The position numbers and the translations under genes are program-made. From Rubripirellula tenax (GTDB lineage: Bacteria > Planctomycetota > Planctomycetia > Pirellulales > Pirellulaceae), in NCBI RefSeq assembly GCF_007860125.1, contig NZ_SJPW01000002.1, positions 1,031,768 through 1,095,767 on the forward strand: 64,000 bases of DNA, given 5' to 3'. Positions 4,943-55,243 of this stretch are shown here, in pieces. Numbering within the stretch: the first letter of the stretch is position 1; each line of letters opens with the position of its first letter. The notes below the pieces were generated by a model. The model was not told the DNA's origin. It searched no databases and saw only the letters and a list, made by a program, of their open reading frames with translations.

Positions 4943-5159
4943 TCGTCGACGAATCGGCCGCTCACGACATCAACAAACCGTTGGCGACTTGGGCTCCGCG
5001 ATTCCTGGAGTTGTGAACTTTTTTGGCCCCGCGTTTCACTCAATGGCGCATTGAAGACTACCGACGAAATGTCGGCCCCACTCGCGTTTCAGTTCACCCC
5101 TAGCTGAAACCCCTAATTCTGGGTGGGCTCTTCGACCATTGAAACGAGACCGTTACACC

Positions 5160-8100
5160 ATGCCAAAGCCCCAAGATTTTCTCAGCCGCGCGTTCTCACG
5201 ACTCAGCGGATCGCGTGACCGAAAAACAACCCGTCGGCGGCGTCCATCCCGTCGCCTGAGTGCCGAGGCTTTGGAAGCACGTCAACTGCTTGCCGGTGAC
5301 CTGTTCATCAACGAGATCATGGCCAGCAACACGACCACCATCGAAGATCCCGATGAAGCGGGGGCTTTCGAGGATTGGGTGGAAATCTACAACGCCGGCA
5401 CGACGGCAGTCGATCTGGGTGGCATGTATCTGACCGACGACGTGGATGCGCCCACCCAGTGGCAGTTCCCGACCGGATCGACCATTGCCGCTGGTGGCTT
5501 TCTTTTGATTTGGGCCGATAGCGAACCCGAACAGGGCGACAACCATGCTTCGTTCAAGTTGTCTGCCAGCGGTGAAACGGTCGCCCTTTACGACACCGAC
5601 GGCACAACGCTGGTCGACTCAATCGAGTTTGGTGAACAAGTAACCGATATCGCCTTTGGGCGTTCGCCCGACGGCAGCGAAACGCTTAGCGTATTGACGA
5701 CACCGACCCCCGGTGCTGCCAACTCGGTCGTCGGCGAAGCGAACCTGGCGCCGACTGCCAACGCGGGCGGACCCTATTTTGGCACAACGGCAGATACGAT
5801 TTCGCTTTCCGCTGCGTCTTCGTCCGATTCCGATGGAAGCATTGCGACGTACGCTTGGGACTTGGATCACGACGGCGAGTATGACGACGCTACGGGTGAA
5901 TCCGTAAGTTTTTCGTCGACGACCGTCGGAACGTTCGTCGTCGGTTTGCAAGTGACCGACGATGACGGCGCGACCAGTGTGGACACCGGTACGATCAAAA
6001 TCTCGCAAGTGGGCGAAGTTGCATCGCCGTGGGAAGCCGTCACCATCGACGACGAAGCGGCTGCGTTCTTTGACGACACCTATGTTCACGAACTCTCAAT
6101 CACGTTTGAGGATGACGACTGGTACAACACGCTGTTTACGTCGCACGACACCGATGCAGCCGACCCCTATTTCCAGGCCAACTTTGTCGCGGACGGGGTC
6201 GCACTGGACAACGTCGGTGTTCGCTTCAAAGGGAACTCGTCGTTTAGCGGTTCCGGCGTCAAGAAGTCGATCAAGATTGACTTCAACGAGTACGAAGATC
6301 TGACGTTCATGGGGATGAAGAAGCTGAACCTGAACAACAACTTCAACGACCCGACGATGCTGCGGGAAAAGCTGTTCTACGACTACGCTTCGAACTTTGT
6401 CGAAGGGGTCGGCCGCGCGGTGTTCACCAGGGTCACGATCAACGGCGAATTCTACGGGCTGTACACCGCGGTTGAACAAGTGGATTCGACGTTCACGCAA
6501 AGCCGATTTGGCGACGATGAAGACGGCAATTTGTACAAAGGAACGGCGTCCGATGACGCCGTGCTTTCGGATCCGCAGGCCGACTTTGGTTCTGATTTGA
6601 CGTATTTGGGAACGGATCAAGCTGCTTACGAAGCCTTCTATGAACTGAAGACGAACGAAGCCGCGAACGATTACTCGCAGTTGATCGAGATGATCGATGT
6701 GCTCAACAATACTCCGTCGGCCGAGTTGGCGGATGCGATCGAACCGCTGCTGGACGTTCAGGACACGCTTGCTTCGCTGGCGCTGAACAACCTGTTCGTG
6801 AACTTGGATTCGTACTCGGGCGCGGCTCACAACTATTACTTGTATGACCGTGACGACACGGGCCAATTCACACACTTGTTGTGGGATGCAAACGAATCGT
6901 TCGGCACGTTCACCCAGTTTGTTGATCGAGGAACCAACGTTGTCCAACTCGATCCGTTTTTTCTGCCGGTGGGTACGGGGGGGCGTCCCGGACAGCCCGT
7001 TGAGGAAGAACTGCGTCCGCTAGCTGAAAACCTGTGGGCGGTCGATGAGTACAGCACCGACTACCTGCGTGATCTGCAACAAATGTTGGAACAGGGTTTC
7101 GACGTCACGTCGGCCACTGCTCGGATCAACAAACTGGCCGATCTGATTCGCGCGGACGTTTCCGAGGATCCGAACAAACAATTCACGACTGCGCAGTTTG
7201 AATTGAACTTGACGAACAACGTGACGGCGGGAAATCGAACGCTCTACGGATTGACTAGCTTCATCGGGAACCGGTCATCCTATTTGACGTCCGCTCTCTC
7301 GCAATACGATCTGGAACCGGAGTCTGTCGGGGTCTACATCAATGAGATCATGGCCGATAACGACGCAACGATCGAAGACCCAGACGAAGCAGGCGCATTT
7401 GAGGATTGGATCGAACTATACAACCCCGGTACGACTCCTGTTGATCTCAGCGGGCTGTACTTAACGGATGACGCCACTGATCCGACGCAGTGGGAATTCC
7501 CCAGAGGATCAACGATCGACGCGGGCGGCTACCTGATCATTTGGGCCGATGGCGATACCGATCAAGGCGACAATCACGCTTCGTTCAAGCTGTCAGCCGG
7601 TGGCGAGTCTGTCTTGCTGTACAACAATGACGGATCCACATTGGTTGACTCGATCACTTTTGGCCAGCAAACCACGGACGTTTCGTACGGTCGATTCCCC
7701 GACGGATCGTCGACATTGAACGTGCTGTCGGCTGCTACGCCGGGTGCGTCCAACACCAACGACACGACGCCCAATAACGTCGCACCAACCGCCGAAGCCG
7801 GTGGCCCGTACACCGGAACTGTTGGCGGAACCATAAACTTGAGCGGCGCAACGTCGACCGATTCGGACGGCACGATCGCGTCCTATGCTTGGGATCTCGA
7901 TAACGACGGCCTGTACGACGACGCCATCACAGCCACCGCAACTTTTAACGCGGCCGCGACAGGAACGTTCACGGTTGGCCTTCAAGTCACCGACGACGAC
8001 GGTGCCACCAGCACTGACACCGCGACAGTGACCGTTAACATTGAATCGGCTGCGATCTTCATCAATGAAATCATGGCCGACAACGACGCCACGATCGAAG

Positions 8101-10664: not shown

Positions 10665-11348
10665 TCTGTCGAACGGCAACACGTTGCCAGGTCCTAATCG
10701 GAGGCCGTTGCCCGCATCGATGTTTGCCCGGCCCAACAGGGCTGTTACAATCGTGATAGCACTAGCCCGACAGTTCTACTGCCCATGCGGTTCCGACCCT
10801 GTTCATCAAGACCTTGTTATTTCGATTTGAACGCCCCAGCAATATGATGCCTGTCGTCATGGCGTTGTTGCTTTCGTTGCCAAGTCTTGGAATCACGACC
10901 TTGGTTTCCCGTTCACTGTTCAGCAGCGAACGGCTGATGGAGATAGAAGAAGTCGAGGAGTTCTTTTCGTGCTCGTTCAGAAAGCTTGCACAATCAAACC
11001 AGAGATCGAACAGGTACACGTCAAACGAACTGAATTGTTTTTCGCATGGTTCTCCCGCCCGCAAGGTGACATCACCTCGCGATTTCATTCCGGCGTGCTT
11101 CTTTGACGGACACCGTCTTGCGAACGGATCTCTTGCGCCGATGCGCTGTTAGGCCGCCCCGTCGGTCGGTCCTTCTTTCGCCGAGATACTGCCACATTCC
11201 GTGTTGTGTTTTCGTTTCGACTTGCTGATTGGCAGGGCGAGAGATCGCGCGACCCATCGTTGATTTCGGCGTACTGCTTAGGAATCGGCGCTGTTGAGTA
11301 GTTTTACGACGCATTCCATTTCGCACATTTATTCTAAATCAAACCCAA
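10665..11348. other. 684-base gap with no convincing gene
   Basis: A short inverted repeat GGCAAC-ACG-(G)TTGCC lies about 10 bases after the giant-protein stop (near 10675-10690) but has no T-run. Open frames exist on both strands (plus 10814-11152, 112 codons; minus 11088-10762, 108 codons) and overlap each other. Neither has a recognisable domain, signal peptide or convincing ribosome site, so I do not call a gene. Confidence 0.4.
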
Positions 11349-13586
11349 ATGAACCAATCCGATATATCGCTTTCGCCAAGTTCGCTGTTTCGGGACATCC
11401 TCGCCGGATTGGTGGTTTTTCTCGTCGCATTGCCACTTTGCCTTGGCATCGCGCTCGCGTCCGGCGCCGACTTGTTTTCCGGATTGCTTGCCGGCATCGT
11501 CGGCGGCTTGGTAGTCGGGGCGATCAGCGGTTCGCATACCAGCGTTAGTGGGCCGGCCGCCGGTTTGACGGCGATCGTTGCGGCACAGATCGCGTTACTT
11601 GGATCTTTCAGGGCATTCTTGTTGGCCGTCATGATCGCCGGCGTGATTCAAATCGGCTTTGGAATTGCCAAGGGCGGAGCGCTATCAGCGTTCTTTCCCT
11701 CAAGCGTGATCAAAGGATTGCTCGTCGCAATCGGTGTGATTCTGATTCTGAAACAGATACCACACATTTTCGGGCACGATACAGACCCCGAAGGCGAGAT
11801 GTCGTTCCAGCAACCGGATCATGAAAACACTTTGACGGAACTGTTCACAGTGATCGCTGGTGAAATTCACGTCGGTGCGATGGCGATCGGATTGTTATCA
11901 GTTGCGTTATTGGTGCTCTGGGATCGAATTCCCGCGTTGAAGAAATCGCTCGTTCCCGCACCGCTTATTGTCGTGCTATTCGGCGTTGCACTTAGCGTTT
12001 GCTTTCGCGGATTGGGTGAGAATTGGATCATCGAAGCGACGCATTTGGTTCAGATCCCGACTGCCGCGAATTTCTCTGAATTTGTTGGATTCCTTCGCCT
12101 GCCGGACTTTTCGCAAGTGAGCAATCCGGCGGTCTACCTCGCCGCCGTCACCATCGCGGTCGTTGCCTCGCTAGAAACGCTTTTGAATCTGGAAGCTGTC
12201 GATAAGCTGGACTCTTCCAAACGGAATTCACCGCCCAGTCGCGAGCTTGTCGCCCAAGGCTGCGGAAACGTGGTCTGCGGATTGATCGGCGGCCTGCCGA
12301 TCACGTCGGTCATTGTCCGTGGTTCCGTCAACGTCGGAGCCGGCGCCAAGTCCAAGTTCTCGGCGATATTTCATGGTGCGTTGTTGCTCGTCAGCGTGGC
12401 GATTTTGCCGCGATACATGAACATGATTCCGCTCTCTGCGCTGGCTGCGATTCTGTTCGTGACGGGCTTCAAGCTAGCCAGCCCCAAAATCTTCAAACAG
12501 ATGTGGAGCCAGGGGCGGTATCAATTTGTGCCCTTCATCATCACGGTCGTCGCCATTGTCTTCACCGATCTGTTGGTGGGAATTTTGATCGGTTTGGGAA
12601 CGAGCGTTCTGTTCATTCTTAATAGCAACCTGAGACGACCCATCCGGCGAATTATCGAGACCCGGGTGGCCGGCGAAGTGATGCACATTGAACTGGCAAG
12701 TCAGGTGAGTTTCCTGAATCGCGCAGCGATTGACCAAATCTTCAGCGAAGCAAAACGCGGAAGCAATCTGGTAATTGATGCGACGCACACGGATTACATC
12801 GACCCGGATGTCTTGAGCCTGATTCGGGACTTTCGAGATGAGATCGCCCCTGCGCGAGGCATTGCGGTCAATCTTCGGGGCTTCAAGCCAAAGTACCAAT
12901 TGAAAGACGAAGTTCAGTTTGCAGACTATTCGACTCGTGAAGTTCAGGGGCAGCTTTCCGCAGACCAAGTGATCGACATCCTGCGCGAAGGAAACCGTCG
13001 ATTCACAAGCGGAAAGCGGTTGAATCGCGATCTCGGAAGCCAGGTACAAGCAACCGCCGATGGGCAAAGTCCTTTGGCCGCCATCCTTAGCTGCATCGAT
13101 TCTCGCGTGCCGGCGGAGATCGTCTTCGACTTAGGCGTCGGAGACATCTTCAGCGTCCGAGTCGCGGGCAACGTGATTGGCACAAAGTCGTTGGGAAGTC
13201 TTGAGTTTGCCGTCGGCGTATCGGGCGTCAAAACGGTGGTGGTTCTTGGCCACACCCGATGCGGCGCTGTAACAAACTCCGTCAAGCTCGTTGTCGATCA
13301 GAAGAGTGCTCAGGCCGTCACTGGTTGCGAGCATTTGCAATCGATTGTCGACGAAATCAAACCGAGCGTACCCGGCTTGGCCGTCGGAGCATTGGATCAG
13401 CTTTCAACCGTGGCGTTTGAAGAGATGGTGGACCAGGTTTCTAAGCAAAATGTCCGGCACACCGTCGAGCAGGTCATCAACCGTAGCACGGTGATACGCG
13501 AGGCCGTCCATCAAGGGCGCGTAAAAGTGATCGGGGCGTTGTACGACGTCAAATCCGGCAACATCGAATTCTTTGACCCCAAATGA
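11349..13586 (+). CDS. SulP (SLC26-type) anion transporter fused to a beta-carbonic anhydrase
   Basis: A 745-residue inner-membrane protein. Residues 1 to about 430 form the SulP transport core with repeated hydrophobic helices and the LFRDILAGLVVFLVALPLCL start and GLPITSVIVRGSVNVGAGAK loop typical of SLC26/BicA proteins. Residues of about 435-540 form a STAS-like cytoplasmic domain. From about 545 to the end is a beta-carbonic anhydrase with zinc/active-site residues C582-x-D584-x-R586 (SCIDSR) and H635-x-x-C638 (HTRC). SulP-carbonic anhydrase fusions are a known architecture and suggest bicarbonate transport coupled to CO2 hydration; sulfate transport is also possible and would be relevant next to so many sulfatases. 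It is a single gene, convergent with the beta-helix gene. Confidence 0.93.
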   Translation: MNQSDISLSPSSLFRDILAGLVVFLVALPLCLGIALASGADLFSGLLAGIVGGLVVGAISGSHTSVSGPAAGLTAIVAAQIALLGSFRAFLLAVMIAGVIQIGFGIAKGGALSAFFPSSVIKGLLVAIGVILILKQIPHIFGHDTDPEGEMSFQQPDHENTLTELFTVIAGEIHVGAMAIGLLSVALLVLWDRIPALKKSLVPAPLIVVLFGVALSVCFRGLGENWIIEATHLVQIPTAANFSEFVGFLRLPDFSQVSNPAVYLAAVTIAVVASLETLLNLEAVDKLDSSKRNSPPSRELVAQGCGNVVCGLIGGLPITSVIVRGSVNVGAGAKSKFSAIFHGALLLVSVAILPRYMNMIPLSALAAILFVTGFKLASPKIFKQMWSQGRYQFVPFIITVVAIVFTDLLVGILIGLGTSVLFILNSNLRRPIRRIIETRVAGEVMHIELASQVSFLNRAAIDQIFSEAKRGSNLVIDATHTDYIDPDVLSLIRDFRDEIAPARGIAVNLRGFKPKYQLKDEVQFADYSTREVQGQLSADQVIDILREGNRRFTSGKRLNRDLGSQVQATADGQSPLAAILSCIDSRVPAEIVFDLGVGDIFSVRVAGNVIGTKSLGSLEFAVGVSGVKTVVVLGHTRCGAVTNSVKLVVDQKSAQAVTGCEHLQSIVDEIKPSVPGLAVGALDQLSTVAFEEMVDQVSKQNVRHTVEQVINRSTVIREAVHQGRVKVIGALYDVKSGNIEFFDPK

Positions 13587-13639
13587 ACGCAATCGGACAT
13601 TTCCAACGAGCGATTTACTTTTGCGGATCACGACTGCGT

Positions 13640-15793
13640 TCACTCGATTAAGCCGACTTTTGACAAATCGATCGGCTCGAAGCCTAGTTTCAAAGCGGGC
13701 GAGTTCGGTTGCAATCGAAAGTCACCCTGGGCTGGATCAACGAATAGCGGATCAACGGCTAGGCTGTGCAAATCGACTCCGTCAGCCTTTTGTTTTTCCA
13801 ACATTTGATTGCCCAGGCCCTGTTCGGCAGCACAGTAGTAAATGTTGAAGTCCGTTTCGGCATCTTTTGCATTCGCCAAAGATCTGCCGCGGCGGTCCTC
13901 GCTGACGCGGTCGTTACGAGCCGGCAGCTCGTCAATGAAGGTACATTCATTCGACGATGAATAGAAAATGTTTCGCTGAATCGTGGCACCGGTCAATGGC
14001 CCTTCCCGGAGGGACAAATAGTATCCACGGGGCGGTGCGATGATGTCGGCGACGATGTTGTTTTCGCAACGATTGTTCAACTTCAACAGGATTCCCTGCG
14101 ACGTACATTTGTAGATCAAATTCTCGGCGATCAACGTATCCATCTGCCCGCCATCGGTGCGAATGGCCGCCTGCATGATCATCGGTGCAACCAGATGATG
14201 GACGTAGTTCCGGCGGATTTCGTTGCCAGCACCTGCGCCGCGAATGTAGATCGCATTGCCGTCGCCCAACATTTCCATTGCGTGATGGATCTCGTTGGCT
14301 TCGATCGCATTCTTCCGCGTGTGAAGGTAGGGACGCACATCCTCAAGAGTCGGCTTCTTGGGCAAGTCCAAGATTTCATGTCGGCGGATGGTTCGCCCGA
14401 GTTCTCGGCCGCTTTTCACAAAAAAATCCGTCATGCAACCCGAAAGAATGATCGCGGTGTACGGCGTGTGATGTATTAGGTTGTTCGCCACGCGATTTTC
14501 GCCGCTTTGCCACACCATGATGCCGGGCGAATGTGAATAGATTTTCCCGATATGGTGAATGTGATTGTTGTAGACGAGATTGTTTTTGTTCACGTCCTTG
14601 GCTCCCGGCCCGTATCCACAAAGCAGAATGCCGGCGCCTCCCATATGCTCGATCAAGTTACCGACGATCTTGTTGTGCTGGCCGTGCAGGTCGACACGGA
14701 TCGCGCCACCGCCACTGTGGGCGAATCGACATTTTTCGATCGTGCAGTTTTCTGTCCCGCGAAGGCGAACGAGCGCGTTAGGTTTGTCGTGCATGTCCCA
14801 GTCGTGCTGTAGTCCGGCATCGTCCTGTTCCAATCGATACCGTTCACCGTGACCGAAGGTCAGTCCGCGAAAACAGAGGTTTCGTACCGGCGTATCCTGC
14901 GGGCCTTGCTTGTCGATTTCCCCTTCGACGCGGATCATTTCCGTCAATGTCGGAGCAACGACGGGCGACTTGATTCGAGGCCAGAGGTACACTTTTCCTT
15001 CTTTGGAATCCAAAACCCACTCGCCCGGTTCGTCGAGTTCTTCCAACACGTTTTCGACCCAGCAAGAGTCGGTCGTCTTTAAGAAGTGAAGTTCGTTCAT
15101 GGCATAGGTCGCGTCGATCGAAGTGTCCGCCGTCTGTGCTTCTTCATCGACGGACTTCAACGGCAAAATATTCACGATCCAGGCGTGATGGGGTCGAACG
15201 ACGATTTCGACGTCTTCGACGTTCGACCAGCTCTTCAGCTTGCCGGCCGGAAAATGAAGCTGGTTGCGACTGCTGCCTTTGAGTGGAATGAAGCCAGCTG
15301 ATCGCGCGCGAGGCAGCAAACCGTCGGCATCGAAGAGCGTGCGAAATTTGCGAGTGACATCAGCGACGTACACCTTCCCTCGCGCCTGCTCGGACAAGCC
15401 CGGAACGTCGTCGGTTACGCGTTCCCAACCATTGACTTCCTCGCCCGCGCTGAATGCCGGCGTCTCGCCGGGCCAGGCAGCGTAGGTGATCTTTGCCTCA
15501 CCGCTGGGCGAATCCTGAACCCCGAACACGACCGTTTGCTTCAGTCGGTAAGTTCCGCCACGAATCAGGACAACGATATCCGTTGCTTTGGTTTTCTTCA
15601 GATCGCGAACCGCATCGCGAGCTTTTTCCAAGGTAGCAAACGGGCCGTCACTGCCAGCGGCATTCGGTTCCGCCAATGTGCCCGACCATTGATCCGAACC
15701 GTCAACGGCCACGATAAAGTCGGCCTGTTCGGCACCCACCGAAGACGAGAGAAACACTAACGAGAACAAAAAAAGCGGCAGTATCGATTTCAC
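13640..15793 (-). CDS. Secreted right-handed parallel beta-helix protein (putative polysaccharide-active enzyme)
   Basis: A 717-residue protein with a signal peptide (MKSILPLFLFSLVFLSSSVGA). The start is GTG at 15793, with GAAGG in the leader about 9 bases upstream. The N-terminal part (FIVAVDGSDQWSGT, FATLEKARDAVRDLK, IRGGTYRL) is the usual beginning of pectate-lyase-like or GH141-like beta-helix enzymes. The middle repeats N/H-rich coils (NNLVYNNHIHHIGKIYSHS, NRVANNLIHHTPYTAI, NLIYKCTSQGILL) typical of PbH1 repeats. It is probably a glycoside hydrolase or lyase acting outside the cytoplasm; I cannot assign the family reliably (GH141, GH110 or a lyase are candidates). It lies just downstream of, and convergent with, the SulP gene. 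Confidence 0.8.
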   Translation of the reverse strand: MKSILPLFLFSLVFLSSSVGAEQADFIVAVDGSDQWSGTLAEPNAAGSDGPFATLEKARDAVRDLKKTKATDIVVLIRGGTYRLKQTVVFGVQDSPSGEAKITYAAWPGETPAFSAGEEVNGWERVTDDVPGLSEQARGKVYVADVTRKFRTLFDADGLLPRARSAGFIPLKGSSRNQLHFPAGKLKSWSNVEDVEIVVRPHHAWIVNILPLKSVDEEAQTADTSIDATYAMNELHFLKTTDSCWVENVLEELDEPGEWVLDSKEGKVYLWPRIKSPVVAPTLTEMIRVEGEIDKQGPQDTPVRNLCFRGLTFGHGERYRLEQDDAGLQHDWDMHDKPNALVRLRGTENCTIEKCRFAHSGGGAIRVDLHGQHNKIVGNLIEHMGGAGILLCGYGPGAKDVNKNNLVYNNHIHHIGKIYSHSPGIMVWQSGENRVANNLIHHTPYTAIILSGCMTDFFVKSGRELGRTIRRHEILDLPKKPTLEDVRPYLHTRKNAIEANEIHHAMEMLGDGNAIYIRGAGAGNEIRRNYVHHLVAPMIMQAAIRTDGGQMDTLIAENLIYKCTSQGILLKLNNRCENNIVADIIAPPRGYYLSLREGPLTGATIQRNIFYSSSNECTFIDELPARNDRVSEDRRGRSLANAKDAETDFNIYYCAAEQGLGNQMLEKQKADGVDLHSLAVDPLFVDPAQGDFRLQPNSPALKLGFEPIDLSKVGLIE

Positions 15794-36804: not shown

Positions 36805-38127
36805 ATGAACACAAATCATCTTCTCATAATATTCTTCGTCATTGCGAGTGTGTCTCACTGCGAAGCACGCTGCCAATCTGCCTTTGCCGCGAAGTTCGAG
36901 GTTTCGACCGTCTCTGACGAAGGAATGCCCAAAACAATCGTACGGCCGGGTGCGCTCTGGAATTTTGGCGCCGGAGCGTTGCAGACGTATCGAGGTTGGC
37001 AGTACGCAGCATTCTGGGATGCCAGCAAACAAGTAACAGTTGCGCGTCGCGAACTGCCACAGGGAACTTGGGAATGTGCATCGCTGGGTGGCTATCAACG
37101 CACGTCCAACATCAACCGTGGTAGTGCGGGACCAAAGGCCCGAGGTTTTGGTGACGGTCATGAAAAGGTTGCAATGGGAATCTCAAGTGACGGCGTGATT
37201 CATCTGGCTTTCGACCATCATGTGTCAACGTTGCACTATCGATGCAGCCGCCCGGGCCTCGCGAATAAGCCGAAGGAGTTCACATGGACAGAAGCACTCT
37301 TCGGAGCCGCTGAGGACAATCTGGGTGGACCGAAGCTGGAAACCGTCACGTATCCGAGTTTTGTTCGCGACGGTGATCGACTTTCTTTGTACCTGCGACT
37401 CAACGTCGGTTCCGGTAGCGCCGATTCCCATCTATTCGAATACCATGCCGGCTGCTGGATCATCAATGATCCAGGTTCCAGCAAGCTCATCGACAAGCAT
37501 TGGTCTGGGGGCAACGGAACCGTCAACGCCTATCCGCACACGATGGTTGTCCACAAGGGACGCCGACACCTAACGTGGTGCTGGAGAGACACACCCGATG
37601 CACGCACCTGCCATGACCTTTGCTACGCGTACAGTGATGACCACGGCCAAATCTGGAAAAATAGTACGGGCACGGAAATCGCTGTGCGAGGTTCCAAGTT
37701 TATCTCTGCCGATTCACCAGGGATCGCGGTGCTGGACATCCCACCCGGTTCTTTCTACGTCAATGGCGGATCGATGTCAGTCGACGATGCCGGTGACATC
37801 CACGTCCTAATGAAAGGTCCAAGTGGTCGCCCCATGACTGCCGTTCGGAAGGCTTCGACGGGAGAGTGGATTCGCGGAGAAGGATCCATTCTTGGAGTGC
37901 TGATCGCACGCCCAGAACCACGATTGGTCGTCGCCGAAAGTGGACTCTACCGACAGAGCAGCGGCAAAGAGGGGCTCACCCGGATCAGCACGCCGATCGA
38001 AGATCTTTGCAGAGACAGCCGCTACGTCGTCGACCGCCATCGATGGCAACACGATAGAGTGGTTTCCGTCATCGGTCAAAACGGAACCAAGGTAAGCGTG
38101 ATCGACTTCGCCACAGAGGATCAATAA
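36805..38127 (+). CDS. BNR_4-type beta-propeller protein (candidate polysaccharide lyase)
   Basis: A 440-residue protein with an N-terminal hydrophobic segment (LLIIFFVIASVSHCEA). The body is a BNR_4 propeller: the hallmark GISSDGVIHLAFDHHVSTLH is present, with an upstream GDGHEKVAMG, and AYPHTMVVHKGRRHLTWCWR and YAYSDDHGQIWKN later. Ulvan lyases of families PL24/PL25 and relatives have this fold and use conserved His/Arg/Tyr residues; the DGH and FDHH segments are where they would lie. A sialidase-like or simple binding role is possible. It is placed between two sulfatases in the run (9 bases before the next gene), supporting a glycan role. Confidence 0.8.
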   Translation: MNTNHLLIIFFVIASVSHCEARCQSAFAAKFEVSTVSDEGMPKTIVRPGALWNFGAGALQTYRGWQYAAFWDASKQVTVARRELPQGTWECASLGGYQRTSNINRGSAGPKARGFGDGHEKVAMGISSDGVIHLAFDHHVSTLHYRCSRPGLANKPKEFTWTEALFGAAEDNLGGPKLETVTYPSFVRDGDRLSLYLRLNVGSGSADSHLFEYHAGCWIINDPGSSKLIDKHWSGGNGTVNAYPHTMVVHKGRRHLTWCWRDTPDARTCHDLCYAYSDDHGQIWKNSTGTEIAVRGSKFISADSPGIAVLDIPPGSFYVNGGSMSVDDAGDIHVLMKGPSGRPMTAVRKASTGEWIRGEGSILGVLIARPEPRLVVAESGLYRQSSGKEGLTRISTPIEDLCRDSRYVVDRHRWQHDRVVSVIGQNGTKVSVIDFATEDQ

Positions 38128-46157: not shown

Positions 46158-47642
46158 ATGAACCGCATCTCCCAACGACAATCACTGTTTCCGCTGGTGT
46201 TTTTTGGCCTGATGGTCTCGGCGACCATCTGTGTTGCCAAGCCGCCGGACTTCGTGATCACGATCGCGGACGATCACGGCTTCCATCATTCGTCTGTTTA
46301 TGGATCGCCTGAATTCCAGACTCCCCACATGCAACAACTGGCTGCCGACGGCATTCGGTTTGACAATGCGTACGTGGCCTCGCCGGCATGTGGGCCAAGC
46401 CGAGCGGCTTTGTTCACTGGACTGATGCCCTACCGCAACGGGATCGTCGGCAATCACGAGACTGAACTGAAACCCGGCGTTGAATCGTTGTTGCCACAAC
46501 TGATCGCACAGGGCTATGAAGTCGCATTCCATGGAAAAGTCGGCCACGGTCGGCTGATGCATCACGGGGCCTATGTTCCCGACGAAGTGAAGCGACTGGA
46601 CAAAGACGAACGTCGCCCCATCCGAACGTTGACGAGTGTCGAAGCGTTCTTGCGAGATCGGCCGAAAGACGCCAAGCCGCTGGCACTGTTCCTGGGTTGG
46701 ACCGACACGCATTCAGTTTGGCCGCCTCAGCGGGAAGCTCGCGTCGAACCCGCCAATGTTGTGATTCCACCTCGCATCTACGACACGCCCCAGGCTCGGG
46801 CCGAAATGTCGCGGTACGTCGAAGCGGCCGAACGGATCGACCGCCGACTTGGAGAAACGCGGGAACTGATCGCGAAGTACTTGGATGCCGACAACACCTT
46901 GGTTATGTACACATCCGACCATGGTTTCTGTTGGCCATTCGCCAAATGGTCGCTTTACGAAACCGGAATTCGCACACCGATGATCGTCGCTTGGCCCGGT
47001 AAAATTCGACCGGGAACGACGACTGATGCGATGGTCAGTTGGATCGATCTTATGCCGACATTGATCGACCTAGCAGGTGGCGGACTTCCCAAGGATATCG
47101 ATGGCAAATCGTTTGCCGATGTTCTGTACGGCAAGTCCGATCAACATCGCGACGCAATCTTTGCCACGCACAAGGGCGACAAGGGCATGAACGTGTATCC
47201 GATTCGCTCGGTGCGTGTTGGCCATTGGAAGTACATTTTGAACCTGCATCCCGAGTTCGCATTTACGACTCATACTGATGTGCTCGGCACAGCCGGGCCA
47301 CGCAAGCCGGGAGCTCCCAGCCACGGCGGCAAGCACTGGCCGTCCTACCTCGAAGCCGCCAAGACCGCCCCAGCCGCCGCGGCGTTCCTGCACGACTATC
47401 ACAGTAATCCCGCCGAAGAACTCTATCAAATCGCGGATGACCCGTTCGAGCAAAACAACCTTGCGGCATCGCCCGAACACGCCGAGCAGTTGGCGGAACT
47501 GCGAGCCATGGTTTCCAAACGAATGCGGGAAGTCGGCGATGACCAATCCCTCAGCGGCAAGCCACGTTTCCTGAAAGACTTCCCGTTGCCTGTTGTACTT
47601 GATGTGTCCAAGCCCACCGACAAGATGAGTCCCTCTCGATAA
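46158..47642 (+). CDS. Secreted S1-family sulfatase (paralogue of the fused enzyme)
   Basis: A 494-residue protein with signal region (LFPLVFFGLMVSATICVA), starting 5 bases after the previous stop. Motifs: VITIADDHGFHHSSVYGS, C78-G-P-S-R, FHGKVGHGRLMHH in place of GKWH, YTSDHGFCWPFAKWSLYETG, and the C-terminal HDYHSNPAEELYQIADDPFE. It is closely similar to the sulfatase half of the 50675 gene over its full length, so the two arose by duplication and flank the GH106 gene. By motif (no GKWH, SDHG) it may belong to S1_8, but this is recall only. Confidence 0.92.
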   Translation: MNRISQRQSLFPLVFFGLMVSATICVAKPPDFVITIADDHGFHHSSVYGSPEFQTPHMQQLAADGIRFDNAYVASPACGPSRAALFTGLMPYRNGIVGNHETELKPGVESLLPQLIAQGYEVAFHGKVGHGRLMHHGAYVPDEVKRLDKDERRPIRTLTSVEAFLRDRPKDAKPLALFLGWTDTHSVWPPQREARVEPANVVIPPRIYDTPQARAEMSRYVEAAERIDRRLGETRELIAKYLDADNTLVMYTSDHGFCWPFAKWSLYETGIRTPMIVAWPGKIRPGTTTDAMVSWIDLMPTLIDLAGGGLPKDIDGKSFADVLYGKSDQHRDAIFATHKGDKGMNVYPIRSVRVGHWKYILNLHPEFAFTTHTDVLGTAGPRKPGAPSHGGKHWPSYLEAAKTAPAAAAFLHDYHSNPAEELYQIADDPFEQNNLAASPEHAEQLAELRAMVSKRMREVGDDQSLSGKPRFLKDFPLPVVLDVSKPTDKMSPSR

Positions 47643-47682: not shown

Positions 47683-50571
47683 ATGATGAAACTCTCCGGC
47701 GCGCTCGCGTTTGTCTTGGCGATTCATGTCGCCTTGAGCGCATCGGCAATCGCACAGTCCCCGATCGCACAGTCCCCGGTCGAAGCGACTTTCCGCAATC
47801 CGCCCGATGCCGCTCGCCCCTACACTTGGTGGCACTGGATGAACGGGCATGTGTCCAAAGCCGGAATCACAAAAGACCTCGAAGCGATGAAGGCGGTCGG
47901 TCTTGGTGGCTATCAGCAATTTGATGTGGGTGCCGCGATGCCCGCCGGACCGATCGTTTACAACTCGCCGAAGTATCACGAACTGCTGAAGTTTGCGTTT
48001 GCAGAAGCCGATCGTCTGGGGCTGGACGCGGGTTTCAACAATGCGTCGGGGTGGTCCAGCAGTGGCGGCCCCTGGGTCACGCCGGAGGACTCGATGAAAA
48101 CGCTCGTTTGGAGCGAAGCGACGGTTGCCGCCGCAGCCAAAGATCGCACACCCAACATTCAACTGGCGACGCCCGAACTTCGCGAGTCACAACGCAAAGA
48201 TGCCAAGGGAAAGCCAAACGATTTCTATCGCGACATCGCAGTGCTGGCGTTTCCCGCACCGGCGAACCTGAAGTATCGAATTGCGAATTGGGAAGAAAAG
48301 GCACTCCTGGTATCGAAAGCCAAAGCGGAAGATTTTTCCCCCGATCATCGCGAAGCTCCCACCAGGGCGATCATCCGGCGTGATTCCATTGTCAATCTGA
48401 CCAGCAAAATGGACGAATCCGGAAAGCTCGACTGGAATCCGCCCGCCGGCGAATGGATCATCATGCGAGTGGGCTACGCGTCGACTCGAGCGATGAACAA
48501 GCCGGGGTCTCGCGGCGGGGTCGGACTGGAAATCGACAAACTCAGTCGAGCAGCGGCAGAGGTTCATTGGGATGCGTTGATTGAAAAAGTCATTGCCGAC
48601 GCCAGTCGACTCCCAGCCTTCACGACCATTCTGATCGACAGCTATGAAGTCGGAATGCAAAACTGGACGGATGCGATGGCGGATGAATTTGCATCGCGCC
48701 GAGGCTACGACATCACACCGTACCTCGTCTGTCTGTCGGGGCGCCCGATCGACGATAGCACCACCACCGAACGCGTCCTGTGGGACCTTCGCAAGACGGT
48801 GGCCGAGTTGATGCACGAAAACTACTTTGGCTACTACGCCGAGAAGTGTCATGACCACGGGTTGCAGTTGGCGATTGAGCCGTATGGAAGCGGATCGTTC
48901 GACGCCACCGCCACCACGCTGCTTGCGGACGTGCCCATGACTGAATTTTGGCGGGGCCCCGTCCGCAATTTGTGGCAATGGACAAGTCAAGTCGTTCCCG
49001 GCGGCGCGCATCTTTCAGGTCGGCATGTGGTCGGCGCGGAAGCGTTCACGAGTTTGAAAGGTGATTGGACCGCGCACCCCTACACGCTGAAGAAATACGG
49101 TGACTGGGCCATGGCACAAGGAGTCAACCGCTATTACTTGCATACCTTCGCGCACCAACCGTTCGATGACGATGTGTTGCCCGGAATGTCCATGGGACGT
49201 TTCGGCGGCAACTTCCATCGCAACAACACCTGGTTCATGAAATCACGCTCGTGGATGGACTCGATCGCTCGATGCCAAGCATTGATGCAGGCGGGAACCT
49301 TCCAAGCCGATGTGCTCGCACTCTACGGCGATGAACGGGGATTCAATAATTTCCTAGGCCCAGTCGAGCGACCGGATATCAAGCCGATTCCGGGTTTGAA
49401 GGTCGACCTGGGCGGCATGGGTTCACTGGGCCGACTGTCGGTCGACGAAACCGGCGATATTCGTGTGACCTACGAAGGCACGCTCTTGGATACTCGGTAC
49501 AAAATGCTGGTGCTTAAGCGTGCCGATTTAATGACCGCGGATCACGTTGCGACGTTGGGGCGTCTCGCCGACGATGGTGCCGCGATCTTTGCACCGCGAC
49601 CACTGCGGTCTCCCTCCCTAGAAGACCATGCCGAGGAAGACGAAACCATCGAGTCCCTCGCCAAACAGTATTGGGACACGCACTTGATTCGCGCGTCGAA
49701 TGAATTCACAGAGGCGGCTACCTCGCTGGTTGCCGATTGTGAATTGCCAGAAGACATGGTTTTTAACCGGCACCGAATCGACGCCGACGACTATTACTTT
49801 GTTGCCAACCAGCTAGACAGCCAGCGGGAAATTGAAGCAACGTTTCGAGTCACTGGCAAAGGCCCCGAACTCTGGAATCCGATCACCGGAGGCGTCATTG
49901 AGGCACCGAACTGGAAGCTCACTTCCGATGGCCGCACGCAAGTTCAAATGACACTGGCACCCCTGGAATCACTGTTTGTCGTTTTCCGAGAACCAACCAC
50001 GCAAAAGAGCCGATCGACTCGCTATTCAACATTCAAAACACTCCAAACCTTGAACGAGTGGACGATCCGGTTTGATCCGGAATGGGGACCGCAGGAACCG
50101 ATCTCGGTTGACTCATTGCAGTCTTGGCACGAAAACGCCGACGAAAAAATCAAATACTATTCGGGCTCCGCAACGTATCAAACTTCATTCGATCTCGCTT
50201 CGATGGAATCTCGCATTGTTTTGGACCTTGGCGAGGTCGGCGTCATTGCAAAAACATCTCTCAACGGGAAATCGATGGGGTCGGTGTGGAAGCCGCCATT
50301 TCAAGTTGATGTGACCGAAGGTGCCAAAACGGGAACCAACCTGCTTGAGATCGAAGTCACGAATCTTTGGGTCAACCGGCTGATCGGCGACGAGCGGTTT
50401 CCCTCGCACGGGAATCCATGGCCAAAGTGGTTGAGCGACACAATTCCGACGCCAGCGGACGTGGCACGGAAAACGTTTGTCGTTCACTCGCATTGGAAAC
50501 CGACTGATCCGCTGCTGCCCTCGGGTCTGATCGGCCCGGTAACGCTCCGCTTAAAAAAGTCCCCCGAATAA
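47683..50571 (+). CDS. GH106-type alpha-L-rhamnosidase
   Basis: A 962-residue protein with signal peptide (LAFVLAIHVALSASAIAQ). The N-terminus has GH106 hallmarks: YTWWHWMNGHVSKAGITKDL, LGGYQQFDVGAAMP and FAEADRLGLDAGFNNASGWS; ILIDSYEVGMQNWTDAMADE and QLAIEPYGSGSFDA follow in the catalytic barrel; the C-terminus has a beta-galactosidase-like jelly-roll (LDLGEVGVIAKTSLNGKSMG). GH106 enzymes release terminal L-rhamnose from complex glycans. It lies between the two paralogous sulfatases and upstream of an HpcH/HpaI aldolase that could process rhamnose-derived acids. Confidence 0.9.
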   Translation: MMKLSGALAFVLAIHVALSASAIAQSPIAQSPVEATFRNPPDAARPYTWWHWMNGHVSKAGITKDLEAMKAVGLGGYQQFDVGAAMPAGPIVYNSPKYHELLKFAFAEADRLGLDAGFNNASGWSSSGGPWVTPEDSMKTLVWSEATVAAAAKDRTPNIQLATPELRESQRKDAKGKPNDFYRDIAVLAFPAPANLKYRIANWEEKALLVSKAKAEDFSPDHREAPTRAIIRRDSIVNLTSKMDESGKLDWNPPAGEWIIMRVGYASTRAMNKPGSRGGVGLEIDKLSRAAAEVHWDALIEKVIADASRLPAFTTILIDSYEVGMQNWTDAMADEFASRRGYDITPYLVCLSGRPIDDSTTTERVLWDLRKTVAELMHENYFGYYAEKCHDHGLQLAIEPYGSGSFDATATTLLADVPMTEFWRGPVRNLWQWTSQVVPGGAHLSGRHVVGAEAFTSLKGDWTAHPYTLKKYGDWAMAQGVNRYYLHTFAHQPFDDDVLPGMSMGRFGGNFHRNNTWFMKSRSWMDSIARCQALMQAGTFQADVLALYGDERGFNNFLGPVERPDIKPIPGLKVDLGGMGSLGRLSVDETGDIRVTYEGTLLDTRYKMLVLKRADLMTADHVATLGRLADDGAAIFAPRPLRSPSLEDHAEEDETIESLAKQYWDTHLIRASNEFTEAATSLVADCELPEDMVFNRHRIDADDYYFVANQLDSQREIEATFRVTGKGPELWNPITGGVIEAPNWKLTSDGRTQVQMTLAPLESLFVVFREPTTQKSRSTRYSTFKTLQTLNEWTIRFDPEWGPQEPISVDSLQSWHENADEKIKYYSGSATYQTSFDLASMESRIVLDLGEVGVIAKTSLNGKSMGSVWKPPFQVDVTEGAKTGTNLLEIEVTNLWVNRLIGDERFPSHGNPWPKWLSDTIPTPADVARKTFVVHSHWKPTDPLLPSGLIGPVTLRLKKSPE

Positions 50572-50674
50572 ACACGCATCGAAAAAGACATTCGTTGCTG
50601 CGACAAACGCGGTGAACGCAGACTTCCAACTGAACCATCTACGGCGATAGACGCCAGTTTCAAAAGTGCCCCCT

Positions 50675-53600
50675 ATGAATTCAACCGTTTTGAGAAAATC
50701 GTTTCTTCCGCTGATGCTCTTCAGCTTGATCATCCATGCGACCATTTGCGTCGCAAAACCGCCTAACTTCGTGATCACCATTGCGGACGATCATGGTGTG
50801 TATCACTCATCCGTCTATGGCGCGAACGAGTTTCAAACGCCCAACCTTCAGCGATTGGCGGAAGAAGGAATCCGATTCGACAATGCCTATGTCGCGTCGC
50901 CGGCATGTGCGCCCAGCCGCGCGGCTTTATTCACCGGACGTATGCCGTACAGCAATGGCATCGTTGGCAACCACGAGTTTGAACTCAAGCCCGGTGTCCG
51001 CTCGCTGTTGCCGACGCTTTTGGAACAAGGTTACGAAGTGGTCTTTCATGGCAAAGTCGGGCACTCCGGTCCGAAGCACTATGGGCAGTACGTTCCCGAC
51101 GGTGTCAAGTTTCTCGGCGGTGGCGGTTTGCAACAAACCATGACCCTGGATCAGGTGGAATCGTTTCTCGAGCAGCGTCCCGAAGACGCCCCGCCGTTGG
51201 CACTGTTCCTGGGCTGGACCGACACTCACACCGCATGGCCGCCCAAAGAAGAAGCCCGAATCGCTCCCGAAGACGTTGTCATTCCGCCGAAGATCTTTGA
51301 TACGCCCGAAGCCCGAGTGGAAATGACGCGATACGTCGAAGGAGCCGAGGACATTGACCGTCGCGTCGGAGAAACTCGAGAGCTGATCGCCAAATACCTG
51401 GACGTGGACAATACCGTGGTCGTTTACACGTCTGATCATGGGATGCCGTGGCCGTTCGCGAAATGGTCGCTTTACGAAACGGGAATCCGTACTCCGTTGA
51501 TTGCCGTCTGGCCTGGAAAGATCAAACCCAGCACAACGACCGATGCGATGGTCAGTTGGATTGACCTGATGCCGACACTGATCGACTTGGCCGGTGGGAC
51601 GTCGCCCGCAGGAATCGACGGACGGTCGTTCTCCAAGGTGCTGTTGGGGGAAACCGACAAGCATCGCGACGTGATCTTCGCGACGCACAAAGGTGATAAG
51701 GACAAGAACGTCTACCCGATTCGCAGTGTCCGCGTGGGCAAGTGGAAATACATCCGCAACCTGCACCCCGAGTTCGCCTACACCACCCACACGGACGTTT
51801 GGGCCAAAGAATCCCCGCGGATCGACGGTCATTGGGCGCACGCCGGCCACCACTGGCAATCGTACATCGACGCAGCCAAAACGGACCCGAAGGCGGCCGC
51901 ATTCCTGCACGACTATCACAGCAGTCCTGCAGAAGAGCTTTATCAGGTTGAAGCGGACCCATTCGAGCAGAAAAATCTTGCGGGCTTGCCGGACCATGCG
52001 GCGAAACTGGCAGAATTGCGAGCGATGGTTTCTGAGCGAATGAAAGAAATCGGAGATGACGAATCGCTCAGCGGACCGCCGCAATTGCTGAAAGATTTTG
52101 CACTTCCACCTGCTGAATCCAAAGTTTTTGACGAGGTCGACGGAACCGTCATCATCGAAATGGAAAGCACATCGTCGCCTCTCGGTGAATGGAAAAATCG
52201 CACGACACTGACACCATTCACTGGCACCAGCTATCTGGAATTCATGGGCAACAACCCCGGCGTCGGTGCTCCGAATTCACCCTTGAACTACGACTTTCGC
52301 ATCAACACGCCGGGCGATTATTGGATCTCGATTCGATCCCACAAACGATTGACGGGAGAGGATGGAGTCACCGCACGCAGTGATATGTGTAATGACTGCT
52401 ACTTTCGAGTCGAAGGTGACTACGAATCCGCTGACGCGACGCTGCCGCTGGATTGGCTCAAGAAAGACACGAAGTTTTGGGGGAATGCCGCCGAACTGGA
52501 TTGGAAAAACTGGTCTAGCAAGGTGGTTGGCGACCACGATGCCATCAAGACGGTTCGCTACAAGTTCAAGGCGGGCGAGCAATATCGATTGGTCGTTTCT
52601 GGACGGGCACAGCGTTTCAGTCTGGATCGGATCGTTATCACTCGCGTACCCGACCAGCGCTTCAACGCGATTGCCGAGGAATCCCGATTGGTGACTACCA
52701 AACCGCTGGCGGACGTTCAGAAAGTCGGTCGCGATAAGTTCGTGGCGTGGCAACCGCTGTCCCTCTCGTTCAGTGGACCGAAGGCTTCCGAAACCGACAA
52801 CGAACCAAACCCTTTCCTCGACTATCGACTTCAGGTTCGATTCACCGGTCCATCCCACCAGATCTATGATGTTCCCGGCTACTTCGATGGTGATGGAAAC
52901 GGTGGTGAATCAGGGAACCAGTGGACAGTCATGTTCACTCCGGATGAGCAAGGCGTCTGGAACTACAAGACCTCGCTCCGACATGGCCCCAATGTTGCCG
53001 TCTCGCTGGCGGACGACGCTGGCCAAGCAGTCAAACTGGATGGCGACCGCGGAACAATCGTGGTCCAGCCTAGTGATGCATCGGCGCCCGGCTTTTTGAA
53101 GTGGGGCCGTCTGGAGTACGTCGGTGGTCACTACCTAAAATTTCGCGATGGACCGCATTGGATTCGCGGCGGTGTCGACAGCCCCGAGAACTTCCTTGCC
53201 TACGCTGGATTCGACAACACACCCGCAAATCATCGCTACGCCGACCACGCTTCCGATTGGAAAGATGGCGATCCTGACTGGAACAACGGTAGTGGCAAAG
53301 CAATCATCGGTGCCCTGAACAGCCTCTCTGATCAGAGGGTCAACAGTCTGTACTTCCTGACGATGAACATCGGTGGCGATGGCGACGACGTGTGGCCTTG
53401 GACCGGAAAGCCAGCTCGGAAAGGAAGCCCAACGGACGACAACCGTCACTTCGACTTGAGCAAGCTACGGCAATGGGAAGCGGTCTTCTCGCACGCTCAG
53501 CGACAAGGGATCAATTTGCACTTCGTCTTCAATGAAGCCGAAGAAGCCAATAAAAGCGAGCTCGATGACGGTGAGCTTGGCATTGAACGGAAACTGTACT

Positions 53601-54469
53601 ATCGCGAAATGATCGCCCGGTTCGGCCATCACAATGCGCTCGGCTGGAACTTGTGCGAGGAATACAATGTTGACTTCGACCTGGGTCCCGAACGAATTCG
53701 TTCGTTTGCTGACTATGTCGGCGCGGTGGATTCCTACGGTCATCCGATCACCGTTCACTCAGCCCACGATCCACTGAAGGCTTTGGAATTCATATTCGGT
53801 GACAAACGCTTTGGGATGACGTCGATCCAGCTGAATCAACGTCGCATCGATACGCTGGTGGAGGACTTCCGTAAGGCGACCGCCGCCGCTGGTCGTCCTT
53901 TGCCAATATCAATGGATGAGTTCACGCTCGACGTCGGACAAAACGCCTCCTGGAAACCATTCAACCGGCCCGAATTGCATCGCAAACAAAAACTCTGGCC
54001 CACCCTGCTGTCGGGAGGTCAAATCGAATTCATCCTCGAAGACCTGCTCGGAACAGAATCATTCAAGACGCCCGACCTGCAGGCTTTGTGGAAGTCCGTC
54101 GCGATCGCACGAACGTTCATAGAGAATCACCTGCCGTTCTGGGAGATGTCACCGGCAGATGAGTTGGTCGAAGGTGAATCGACACTGGAAGTCGGACTGG
54201 GCTCGGGAAAATCTTTTCAGCTGGGTGCTCAAGTATTTCATAAGCCCAATGTGGTCTACGCCATCTACTTTCCATCCGCGACCAGCACAGGACGGCTCGA
54301 TATGCGCGCAGCGCGTGGCGAGTTTCAAGCACGCTGGTTCAACCCGCGCACCGGCGACTTTGACGGGCCGTTCATTATGCAAACGGCAGGCGACTGGAGC
54401 AAACTGGGGGACCCTCCTTCGGAACGCGAGGAAGATTGGGTACTGATCTTGAAACGTACAGATAGTTAA
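50675..54469 (+). CDS. Fused sulfatase - carbohydrate-binding - DUF5060/TIM-barrel glycosidase
   Basis: A 1264-residue protein in one uninterrupted frame (ATG 50675; an in-frame GTG at 50666 is also possible). Residues 1 to about 480: S1 sulfatase with C78-A-P-S-R, FHGKVGHSGPKHY and YTSDHGMPWPFAKWSLYE. About 487-665: a carbohydrate-binding-like beta-sandwich (VIIEMESTSSPLGEW, YFRVEGDYESADATLPL). About 690-800: a DUF5060-like domain (DYRLQVRFTGPSHQIYDVPG). About 810-1150: a TIM-barrel glycosidase with likely catalytic E995/E996 (NLCEEYNVDFD) and E1082 (PISMDEFTLDVG). The end (from about 1155) is a collagen-binding-like jelly-roll. Desulfation and backbone cleavage thus occur on one polypeptide. 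The family of the barrel is not assigned. Confidence 0.88.
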   Translation: MNSTVLRKSFLPLMLFSLIIHATICVAKPPNFVITIADDHGVYHSSVYGANEFQTPNLQRLAEEGIRFDNAYVASPACAPSRAALFTGRMPYSNGIVGNHEFELKPGVRSLLPTLLEQGYEVVFHGKVGHSGPKHYGQYVPDGVKFLGGGGLQQTMTLDQVESFLEQRPEDAPPLALFLGWTDTHTAWPPKEEARIAPEDVVIPPKIFDTPEARVEMTRYVEGAEDIDRRVGETRELIAKYLDVDNTVVVYTSDHGMPWPFAKWSLYETGIRTPLIAVWPGKIKPSTTTDAMVSWIDLMPTLIDLAGGTSPAGIDGRSFSKVLLGETDKHRDVIFATHKGDKDKNVYPIRSVRVGKWKYIRNLHPEFAYTTHTDVWAKESPRIDGHWAHAGHHWQSYIDAAKTDPKAAAFLHDYHSSPAEELYQVEADPFEQKNLAGLPDHAAKLAELRAMVSERMKEIGDDESLSGPPQLLKDFALPPAESKVFDEVDGTVIIEMESTSSPLGEWKNRTTLTPFTGTSYLEFMGNNPGVGAPNSPLNYDFRINTPGDYWISIRSHKRLTGEDGVTARSDMCNDCYFRVEGDYESADATLPLDWLKKDTKFWGNAAELDWKNWSSKVVGDHDAIKTVRYKFKAGEQYRLVVSGRAQRFSLDRIVITRVPDQRFNAIAEESRLVTTKPLADVQKVGRDKFVAWQPLSLSFSGPKASETDNEPNPFLDYRLQVRFTGPSHQIYDVPGYFDGDGNGGESGNQWTVMFTPDEQGVWNYKTSLRHGPNVAVSLADDAGQAVKLDGDRGTIVVQPSDASAPGFLKWGRLEYVGGHYLKFRDGPHWIRGGVDSPENFLAYAGFDNTPANHRYADHASDWKDGDPDWNNGSGKAIIGALNSLSDQRVNSLYFLTMNIGGDGDDVWPWTGKPARKGSPTDDNRHFDLSKLRQWEAVFSHAQRQGINLHFVFNEAEEANKSELDDGELGIERKLYYREMIARFGHHNALGWNLCEEYNVDFDLGPERIRSFADYVGAVDSYGHPITVHSAHDPLKALEFIFGDKRFGMTSIQLNQRRIDTLVEDFRKATAAAGRPLPISMDEFTLDVGQNASWKPFNRPELHRKQKLWPTLLSGGQIEFILEDLLGTESFKTPDLQALWKSVAIARTFIENHLPFWEMSPADELVEGESTLEVGLGSGKSFQLGAQVFHKPNVVYAIYFPSATSTGRLDMRAARGEFQARWFNPRTGDFDGPFIMQTAGDWSKLGDPPSEREEDWVLILKRTDS

Positions 54470-54493: not shown

Positions 54494-55243
54494 ATGACAA
54501 ATTCTTTCCGATCGCGTCTGATCGACCACAAGAAACTGATCGGCACCATGATCACGCTGCCCAACGCTGCAACAGCCGAAATTATTGCTGACTGTGGATT
54601 CGATTGGTTGTTCCTCGATAGTGAACATGCTCCGCTAGAGACTCCGGATATTTTGGCGATTCTGCAAGCAGTGGGGCACCGCATCCCTTGTGTTGTACGT
54701 GTGCCTTCCTGCGATGAGGTTCCCATTAAGAAGGTTCTGGATCTTGGCGCTCAAGGAATCGTTGTTCCCTTGGTCAACACAGCGGAGCAGGCGCGAGATG
54801 TCGTTCGCTTCGCGCGCTATGCGCCAGAAGGCCGACGCGGTATCGGTCTCGGACGCGCTCAGGGATACGGAGCGAGATTTCAAGAGTACCTAGCGTCCGC
54901 CAATGATGAAGTTGCAGTGATCGTCCAAGCGGAGCATGCCGAAGCGGTCGAAAACATTGATGAGATCGTAAGAGTTCCCGGAATCGACGCGGTCTTTCTC
55001 GGCCCCTACGACCTTTCAGCCAGCCTTGGGAAAGTGGGCTTGTTCGACGATTCAACTGTAACAGATGCGATCAATCGTGTGACCACTTCATGCCTATCGG
55101 CCAACATGCCGCTTGGGGTTTTTGGAGTGTCCGCGCGTGCAGTACAGCCGTTTCTTGAACAGAACTACACACTGATCACCGTCGGCACAGACACGCTGTT
55201 CCTCGGCACAGCGGCCAAGGATGCGTTGATGCATCTTAGGTAG
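54494..55243 (+). CDS. HpcH/HpaI-family aldolase (2-keto-3-deoxy-sugar-acid aldolase type)
   Basis: A 249-residue cytoplasmic class II aldolase. Conserved features: WLFLDSEHAPLE with the catalytic His, CVVRVP with the substrate Arg, LGAQGIVVPLVNTAEQA, VQAEHAEAVENIDEI with the metal-binding Glu, and DAVFLGPYDLSASLG with the metal-binding Asp. The family cleaves 2-keto-3-deoxy sugar acids to pyruvate and an aldehyde; E. coli YfaU (2-keto-3-deoxy-L-rhamnonate aldolase) is an example. In this context rhamnonate from GH106 products or keto-deoxygalactonate from anhydrogalactose are both plausible substrates. It is the only clearly cytoplasmic enzyme in the 25-kb run, 24 bases after the fused enzyme. 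Confidence 0.9.
   Translation: MTNSFRSRLIDHKKLIGTMITLPNAATAEIIADCGFDWLFLDSEHAPLETPDILAILQAVGHRIPCVVRVPSCDEVPIKKVLDLGAQGIVVPLVNTAEQARDVVRFARYAPEGRRGIGLGRAQGYGARFQEYLASANDEVAVIVQAEHAEAVENIDEIVRVPGIDAVFLGPYDLSASLGKVGLFDDSTVTDAINRVTTSCLSANMPLGVFGVSARAVQPFLEQNYTLITVGTDTLFLGTAAKDALMHLR

Follow-up and report, generated by a model that had tools for sequence, protein, structure and literature searches.

The stretch of DNA considered here, hereafter the window, comprises 64,000 nucleotides of contig NZ_SJPW01000002.1 of Rubripirellula tenax, a Pirellulales planctomycete whose genome is available as 8 Mb in 42 contigs. Our subject is a single gene within it, which joins an S1-type sulfatase to a DUF5060 domain and a glycosidase-like TIM barrel in one polypeptide of 1264 residues, with a module of approximately 180 residues lying between the two. 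The fusion is real and conserved, and the product is most likely a working two-enzyme protein. The initial annotation had described the frame as continuous, and this is indeed the case: the open frame runs from an alternative in-frame GTG at 50666, 9 nt upstream of the ATG, to 54469 with no internal stop, and the same architecture recurs in two other genomes. What is more, the G+C content by codon position (approximately 0.60/0.43/0.63) is uniform along the frame, and thus no hidden frameshift is seen; over the last 64 codons, the position-2 value climbs to 0.54. A Pfam search placed the families Sulfatase, SGSH_C, DUF5060 and Collagen_bind_2 within one protein. The features of the gene, together with the unfused twin of its sulfatase half, are the following:

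50675..54469, forward strand: whole fusion gene, 1264 aa, ATG start, one open frame
50675..50752, forward strand: hydrophobic N-terminus, residues 1-26, likely signal peptide as read from the sequence
50762..52108, forward strand: S1-type sulfatase, residues 30-478 (Pfam PF00884 and PF16347; best solved relative S1_8A)
50906..50920, forward strand: C78-A-P-S-R, residues 78-82, predicted catalytic formylglycine site, from the sequence
52115..52654, forward strand: linker module, residues 481-660, possibly carbohydrate-binding (homologous modules in other proteins)
52745..52978, forward strand: DUF5060 domain, residues 691-768 (Pfam, 6e-20)
53135..54124, forward strand: TIM barrel, approximately residues 821-1150, clan GH-A-like (AlphaFold2 model, Foldseek)
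53660..53662, forward strand: E996, probable acid/base, after strand 4 of the model (WNLCEEYN), invariant in 74/74
53918..53920, forward strand: E1082, probable nucleophile, after strand 7 of the model (MDEF), invariant in 74/74
54257..54451, forward strand: C-terminal beta domain, Collagen_bind_2-like, residues 1195-1259 (Pfam, 1.1e-6; strands in the model)
46158..47642, forward strand: twin sulfatase, unfused, 344/478 residues identical to the fused sulfatase

The N-terminal half had been taken for a complete sulfatase with all motifs intact, and the present results bear this out. Namely, the Pfam Sulfatase model matches residues 30-307 (7e-35, 121 bits against a cut-off of 25), SGSH_C matches residues 261-362, and in an alignment of 10 sulfatases, the fused copy and its twin included, the C and R of the C-A-P-S-R motif, which conforms to C-x-P-S-R, are invariant throughout. 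The same is true of D38, D39, K127, H130, H185, D254, H255 and K263, which we take to be the metal and substrate-sulfate residues. The best solved relative is S1_8A (133 bits with the single sequence, 217 bits with a profile); SGSH and S1_8B/C also score high, and the third rank is held by 5g2v, an N-acetylglucosamine-6-sulfatase. We consequently call the enzyme S1_8-like, its membership in the subfamily not being established. As to the maturation of C78, the genome holds four matches to genes of the FGE family and a single match, under the cut-off, to the sulfatase maturase model TIGR03942. The near twin that had been noticed standing alone at 46158 is there as described. A further relative of the fused sulfatase, on contig C3 of the same genome (L147:3064-4635), carries C-A-V-S-R in place of C-x-P-S-R, and may either be inactive or be matured by another route.

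For the C-terminal half, an AlphaFold2 model was built from an alignment of 74 rows, i.e. the window's barrel and those of 73 of the 80 relative loci returned, shorter matches being left out. These relatives, 33-76% identical to the window's barrel, are spread over groups from Planctomycetes to Bacteroidetes; one of the 80 loci belongs to an archaeal bin. The model is confident (mean pLDDT 95.6, pTM 0.94), and its Foldseek neighbours are 4n0r (3e-28), the GH5 mannanase ManDH5 (3e-26) and, with E-values of approximately 1e-16, GH140 apiosidases, all at 12-16% identity. Strands 304-307 and 393-396, as counted on the model, precede model residues E311 and E397, which correspond to E996 and E1082, and both glutamates are invariant in all 74 aligned barrels. 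Retaining enzymes of clan GH-A carry their catalytic glutamates after strands 4 and 7 in just this way. According to the model, then, the half would be a clan GH-A-type TIM barrel, and the two plausible catalytic glutamates suggested initially have gained support.

Which glycosidase family the barrel resembles most is a separate matter. In the fusion protein, Pfam gave no match at E 0.01 to Cellulase (PF00150, GH5), to DUF4038, which we take to be the GH140 model, or to the six-hairpin rhamnosidase domain of GH78. The closest fold matches, 4n0r (BVU_0362) and ManDH5, are like our barrel in structure, with 4n0r turning up as a profile match to the DUF5060 part as well, but their sequences are as distant as the identity range given above. 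The apiosidases (BT_1012, which we assume to be a GH140 enzyme, and 8t9w) share the fold and presumably, as GH140 enzymes, a Collagen_bind_2-like C-terminus; unlike them, the fusion has a DUF5060 domain and no DUF4038 match. In the portion of the open-licence literature covered by our search, no activity of DUF5060 barrels was found, and of 5.39 million papers a single one, on Lactobacillus genomics, contains the term DUF5060.

Between the two enzymes, a carbohydrate-binding-like sandwich had been proposed. The sandwich fold is unproven, yet the region is a conserved module and not a spacer. In particular, residues 481-660 have no match in Pfam and none by profile in the PDB at E 1, and thus correspond to no recognised carbohydrate-binding module (CBM), and the single-sequence model is unusable (pLDDT 46). 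A scan of viral contigs found no relative of the module. In the order sample of 246 genomes, it occurs in six, i.e. the window's own and G024, G086, G091, G095 and G127. In the window genome it is present in the fusion gene and in two near-identical 1871-aa proteins, and in the five other genomes it is found at seven places; the copies in the 1871-aa proteins and in G024, G086, G091 and G127 are 42-46% identical to it. Most linker-bearing frames also hold a DUF5060 barrel, before or after the module. That said, the idea that the module is exclusive to such barrels had to be rejected, since among the 14 frames scanned (two pairs of which are duplicates or the same gene seen twice) those in L214 (G091), L215 and L230/L240 (G741) have no barrel; further matches, outside these 14, lie in short frames of G754, G764 and G726. 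In one of the barrel-less cases, a 652-aa frame (L214:1414-3369), the module adjoins a CBM6, which offers a lead on its function. Between fused relatives it is 86% identical with a dN/dS of 0.10, that is, as conserved as the enzymes. It is probably a glycan-binding module. The two 1871-aa proteins, each with the module and a DUF5060 barrel, are encoded by tandem genes on contig C3 (L146:3460-9072 and 9928-15540); with 5575/5613 bases identical, the pair is a recent duplication, and a dockerin was found in the one protein of the two that was scanned.

Is the fusion a peculiarity of one genome? On first reading it seemed so, as it was found in only one of 147 distinct barrels among 206 loci, but a query with the junction, run over a family sample of 241 genomes (the window's own and 240 others), rejected this. 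The whole fusion is also present in G763 (ORF 1311), from the same genus, and in G750 (ORF 1299), from another genus, each 83% identical to the window's copy over 376 junction residues. In other words, 3/241 family genomes have it, or 2/240 of the others; neither G763 nor G750 figures in the list of matching genomes from the order sample. A scan of the frames located sulfatase, linker and barrel within a single frame in both genomes, and in both the gene order is cytochrome-c-type protein, sulfatase, fusion, sulfatase. Two other assemblies contain the whole fusion with its reading frame intact from end to end; it is thus not an accident of assembly, and we consider the chance of an assembly or sequencing artefact to be negligible. 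The G763 and G750 proteins share 1266/1299 residues. Relative to the window's copy, dN/dS is approximately 0.11 for the sulfatase, 0.10 for the linker, 0.13 for DUF5060, 0.07 for the barrel and 0.22-0.24 for a short hinge, and in the C-terminal part the divergence is saturated in one of the two comparisons. The whole fusion is under purifying selection in the three genomes.

These values also bear on the possibility that the joining is transient and dispensable, the halves being simply co-expressed and the fusion itself bringing nothing. Its presence does vary among close relatives: G756 has, beside its sulfatase, a 396-aa frame (L233:8018-9205) with stretches of DUF5060 and of the C-terminal domain and no TIM-barrel match between them, and G723 retains a linker remnant in another reading frame. 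Against this, the three full-length copies have kept a dN/dS of approximately 0.1 on three large modules at a pS of approximately 0.5-0.6, and we hold a dispensable joining to be quite unlikely.

As for its origin, the initial annotation had a duplicated sulfatase joining a glycosidase. A member of a sulfatase pair was indeed joined to a glycosidase-like barrel; however, the duplication predates the fusion, and the linker was joined as well. In Aporhodopirellula aestuarii (L060, L148), one cluster encodes relatives of the sulfatase (86%, 413/480), its twin (82%, 395/480), the GH106 enzyme encoded upstream of the fusion (75%) and the barrel (75%), each as a gene of its own; the stand-alone barrel frame has its own hydrophobic N-terminus and no linker module. 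Each of the two sulfatase copies thus has an orthologue in that species, and the duplication must go back beyond the split and predate the fusion. In the trees, the fused barrels come out as a single clade (ultrafast bootstrap 100). The fused sulfatases, by contrast, are split: in G763, G750 and the broken G756 they group with their unfused counterparts in G632, G765 and G723 (99), leaving the window's copy outside (79). Such discordance would fit an old fusion that was lost several times, or else a barrel part that was transferred; repeated loss of an old fusion agrees best with the data, and a transfer may be the alternative history. Vertical descent of the fused barrel from a stand-alone gene of the A. 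aestuarii type is only a tentative reading: the barrel pair has a pS of 0.71, near saturation, where three other gene pairs of the cluster have values of 0.47-0.59, and the A. aestuarii barrel groups with the fused clade at an ultrafast bootstrap of 61 only. With these reservations, the fused barrel would have arisen once, from a sulfatase of the older pair, a module mostly associated with DUF5060, and a barrel of the kind that stands alone nearby in the relative.

Fusions of sulfatases with glycosidases had been called rare, which does not hold. Judging by gene length, Kim et al. 2016 (PMC4807772) put the multi-domain sulfatase genes of two planctomycetes at 34 and 21, the commonest additions being glycoside hydrolase domains and hypothetical ones, and a paper on Kiritimatiellales (PMC6388578) reports S1_7+GH10, S1_7+GH32 and S1_15+GH29. 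These genes resemble ours in being sulfatase-glycosidase fusions, which are common in bacteria of the PVC group, and differ in that no DUF5060-barrel partner is named in the parts seen. Sulfatase frames in our own survey are fused to GH2, GH43, GH78, GH12 and GH2+GH43. Our census of long frames covered 56 stretches chosen by hand among the matches listed, most, though not all, with frames of at least 1000 aa. Of 11 long sulfatase frames fetched, six were scanned with Pfam and five with our own sulfatase profile, which finds two sulfatase domains in each of the five; three of the six long relatives of the fused sulfatase carry GH2 or GH43, in every case behind two sulfatase domains. Eight further stretches of the window genome were fetched and the long frames of seven scanned with Pfam; of these seven long sulfatase frames, two carry glycosidase domains. 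What is new here is the partner, a so far uncharacterised DUF5060 barrel that we did not see joined to a sulfatase in the open-licence literature as far as our search reached into it, and not the joining itself, which is already known. Individual frames met along the way include a sulfatase + GH2 + GH43 protein of 1639 aa (L219:314-5230) and an FAD oxidoreductase + golvesin-like domain + sulfatase protein of 1147 aa (L217:3248-6688), both in the window genome, a 1582-aa frame of A. aestuarii with two sulfatases, GH12 and a laminin-G domain (L148:708-5453), and a sulfatase with a BNR neuraminidase-like region in G117, of the same genus as the window, whose frame runs off the end of the stretch (L205:8600-11821).

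How would the two halves cooperate? By analogy with P36 of Formosa agariphila, the sulfatase could desulfate a terminal sugar, which the barrel would then release. P36, an S1_25 + GH78 protein of ulvan degradation and thus a fusion of the kind named in the initial annotation, has two domains that act in consecutive steps (PMC8511951). Like the present protein, it combines an S1-type sulfatase with a glycosidase in one polypeptide encoded in a polysaccharide-degradation cluster; unlike it, its glycosidase belongs to GH78, whereas here a DUF5060 clan GH-A-like barrel follows an extra module of some 180 residues, and by profile our sulfatase is nearer to S1_8A (217 bits) than to the sulfatase/GH78 structure 6hr5 (161 bits). 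In support of sequential action, S1_8 enzymes are described as 2-O-sulfatases in lambda-carrageenan breakdown, where the following glycosidase can act once they have taken off the 2-sulfates (PMC12549532), and sulfatase and barrel share a cluster even where they are unfused, as in A. aestuarii. The S1_8 assignment itself is, however, uncertain as said, four relatives have the sulfatase without a barrel at that place, and in fusions of relatives with other hydrolases, the group taken off by the partner would be a different one. All in all, we regard action on the same sugar as plausible by analogy but, on balance, doubtful.

A better, though slightly less than even, chance may be given to a synergy by proximity, in which the halves would act on different residues of the same polymer while the middle module docks the protein. 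In the barrel's closer clade, the fusion partner is a beta-lactamase-family hydrolase in 13/35 frames and a pectate lyase in 4/35, and so looks exchangeable; the linker, conserved like the enzymes, adjoins a CBM6 in another protein (L214), as described above. On the other hand, this assigns a putative docking role to a module that has no match to a solved structure by profile. A more far-reaching proposal, which we regard as unlikely, is that the DUF5060 barrels of this clade make up a glycoside hydrolase family not yet described, which would work in tandem with a decoration-stripping enzyme, each lineage swapping the partner (beta-lactamase-family hydrolase, pectate lyase or, here, a sulfatase) to suit its local polysaccharide, and that the middle module is a new family of binding modules for the target sugar.

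Whichever way the halves cooperate, we are fairly confident that the gene encodes one secreted two-enzyme protein for the breakdown of a sulfated polysaccharide that probably contains rhamnose and uronate. Both enzymes would be exported on the signal peptide of the sulfatase, the barrel half showing none of its own in its sequence. The sulfatase, with formylglycine derived from C78, would remove a sulfate ester; the barrel, with E996 as acid/base and E1082 as nucleophile, would hydrolyse a glycosidic bond of the same glycan; and the conserved module between them would probably hold that glycan. Sulfation protects algal polysaccharides, and removal of sulfate is often limiting for their breakdown. 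In a conserved protein of this kind, the sulfatase half narrows down the target of the barrel, and the reverse, making a ready pair for bench work. That said, several points weigh against this reading. We know of no activity in this barrel clade, its fold matches lie at 12-16% identity, and its pectate lyase and beta-lactamase-family partners suggest that the target of the wider clade is pectin-like. The fused sulfatases are not one clade, the linker has no assigned fold (no PDB profile match, poor model), and the C-terminal domain is, at 59% identity between fused relatives, the least conserved part. Finally, the sulfatase is unfused in four relatives (A. aestuarii, G762, G765 and G632), in three of which no barrel was found within 4.5 kb downstream, nor any close match in the genome, and the two activities, consequently, need not be coupled.

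The proposed substrate comes from the genes around the fusion:

47683..50571, forward strand: GH106 alpha-L-rhamnosidase, directly upstream neighbour (Pfam, 4e-167)
54494..55243, forward strand: HpcH/HpaI-type aldolase, 24 nt past the fusion stop (Pfam, 2.9e-40)
36805..38127, forward strand: BNR_4 protein, nearest solved relative an L-rhamnose-alpha-1,4-D-glucuronate lyase (E 8.5e-29)
41027: GH43 neighbour

The NCBIfam models HpaI, GarL and rhamnonate aldolase match the aldolase below their cut-offs, and 11 further sulfatase genes lie between 23511 and 56957. Taken together, the GH106, GH43, lyase-like, aldolase and sulfatase neighbours suggest a sulfated polymer containing rhamnose and uronate. 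In the whole genome there are 153 sulfatase-domain matches from 150 scored candidates of 207, a count of domain matches, with some frames counted twice, and not of genes. The surroundings of the barrel elsewhere are too thin to name a substrate, as among the 70 of 138 open reading frames scanned near barrel loci only Sulfatase (5), MFS (3) and Beta-lactamase (3) reach three members. Sulfatase frames occur in 21/116 barrel or DUF5060 loci, those of the window genome included, and in two loci of Bacteroidetes (L109, L112) the barrel relative has a sulfatase+GH78 frame closely upstream of it. Elsewhere in the window, a 745-aa protein with sulfate permease and carbonic anhydrase domains is encoded near the sulfatase cluster (11349-13586), and an 1841-aa frame (5139-10664) combines a CotH kinase, four lamin-tail and four PKD stretches, and a dockerin.

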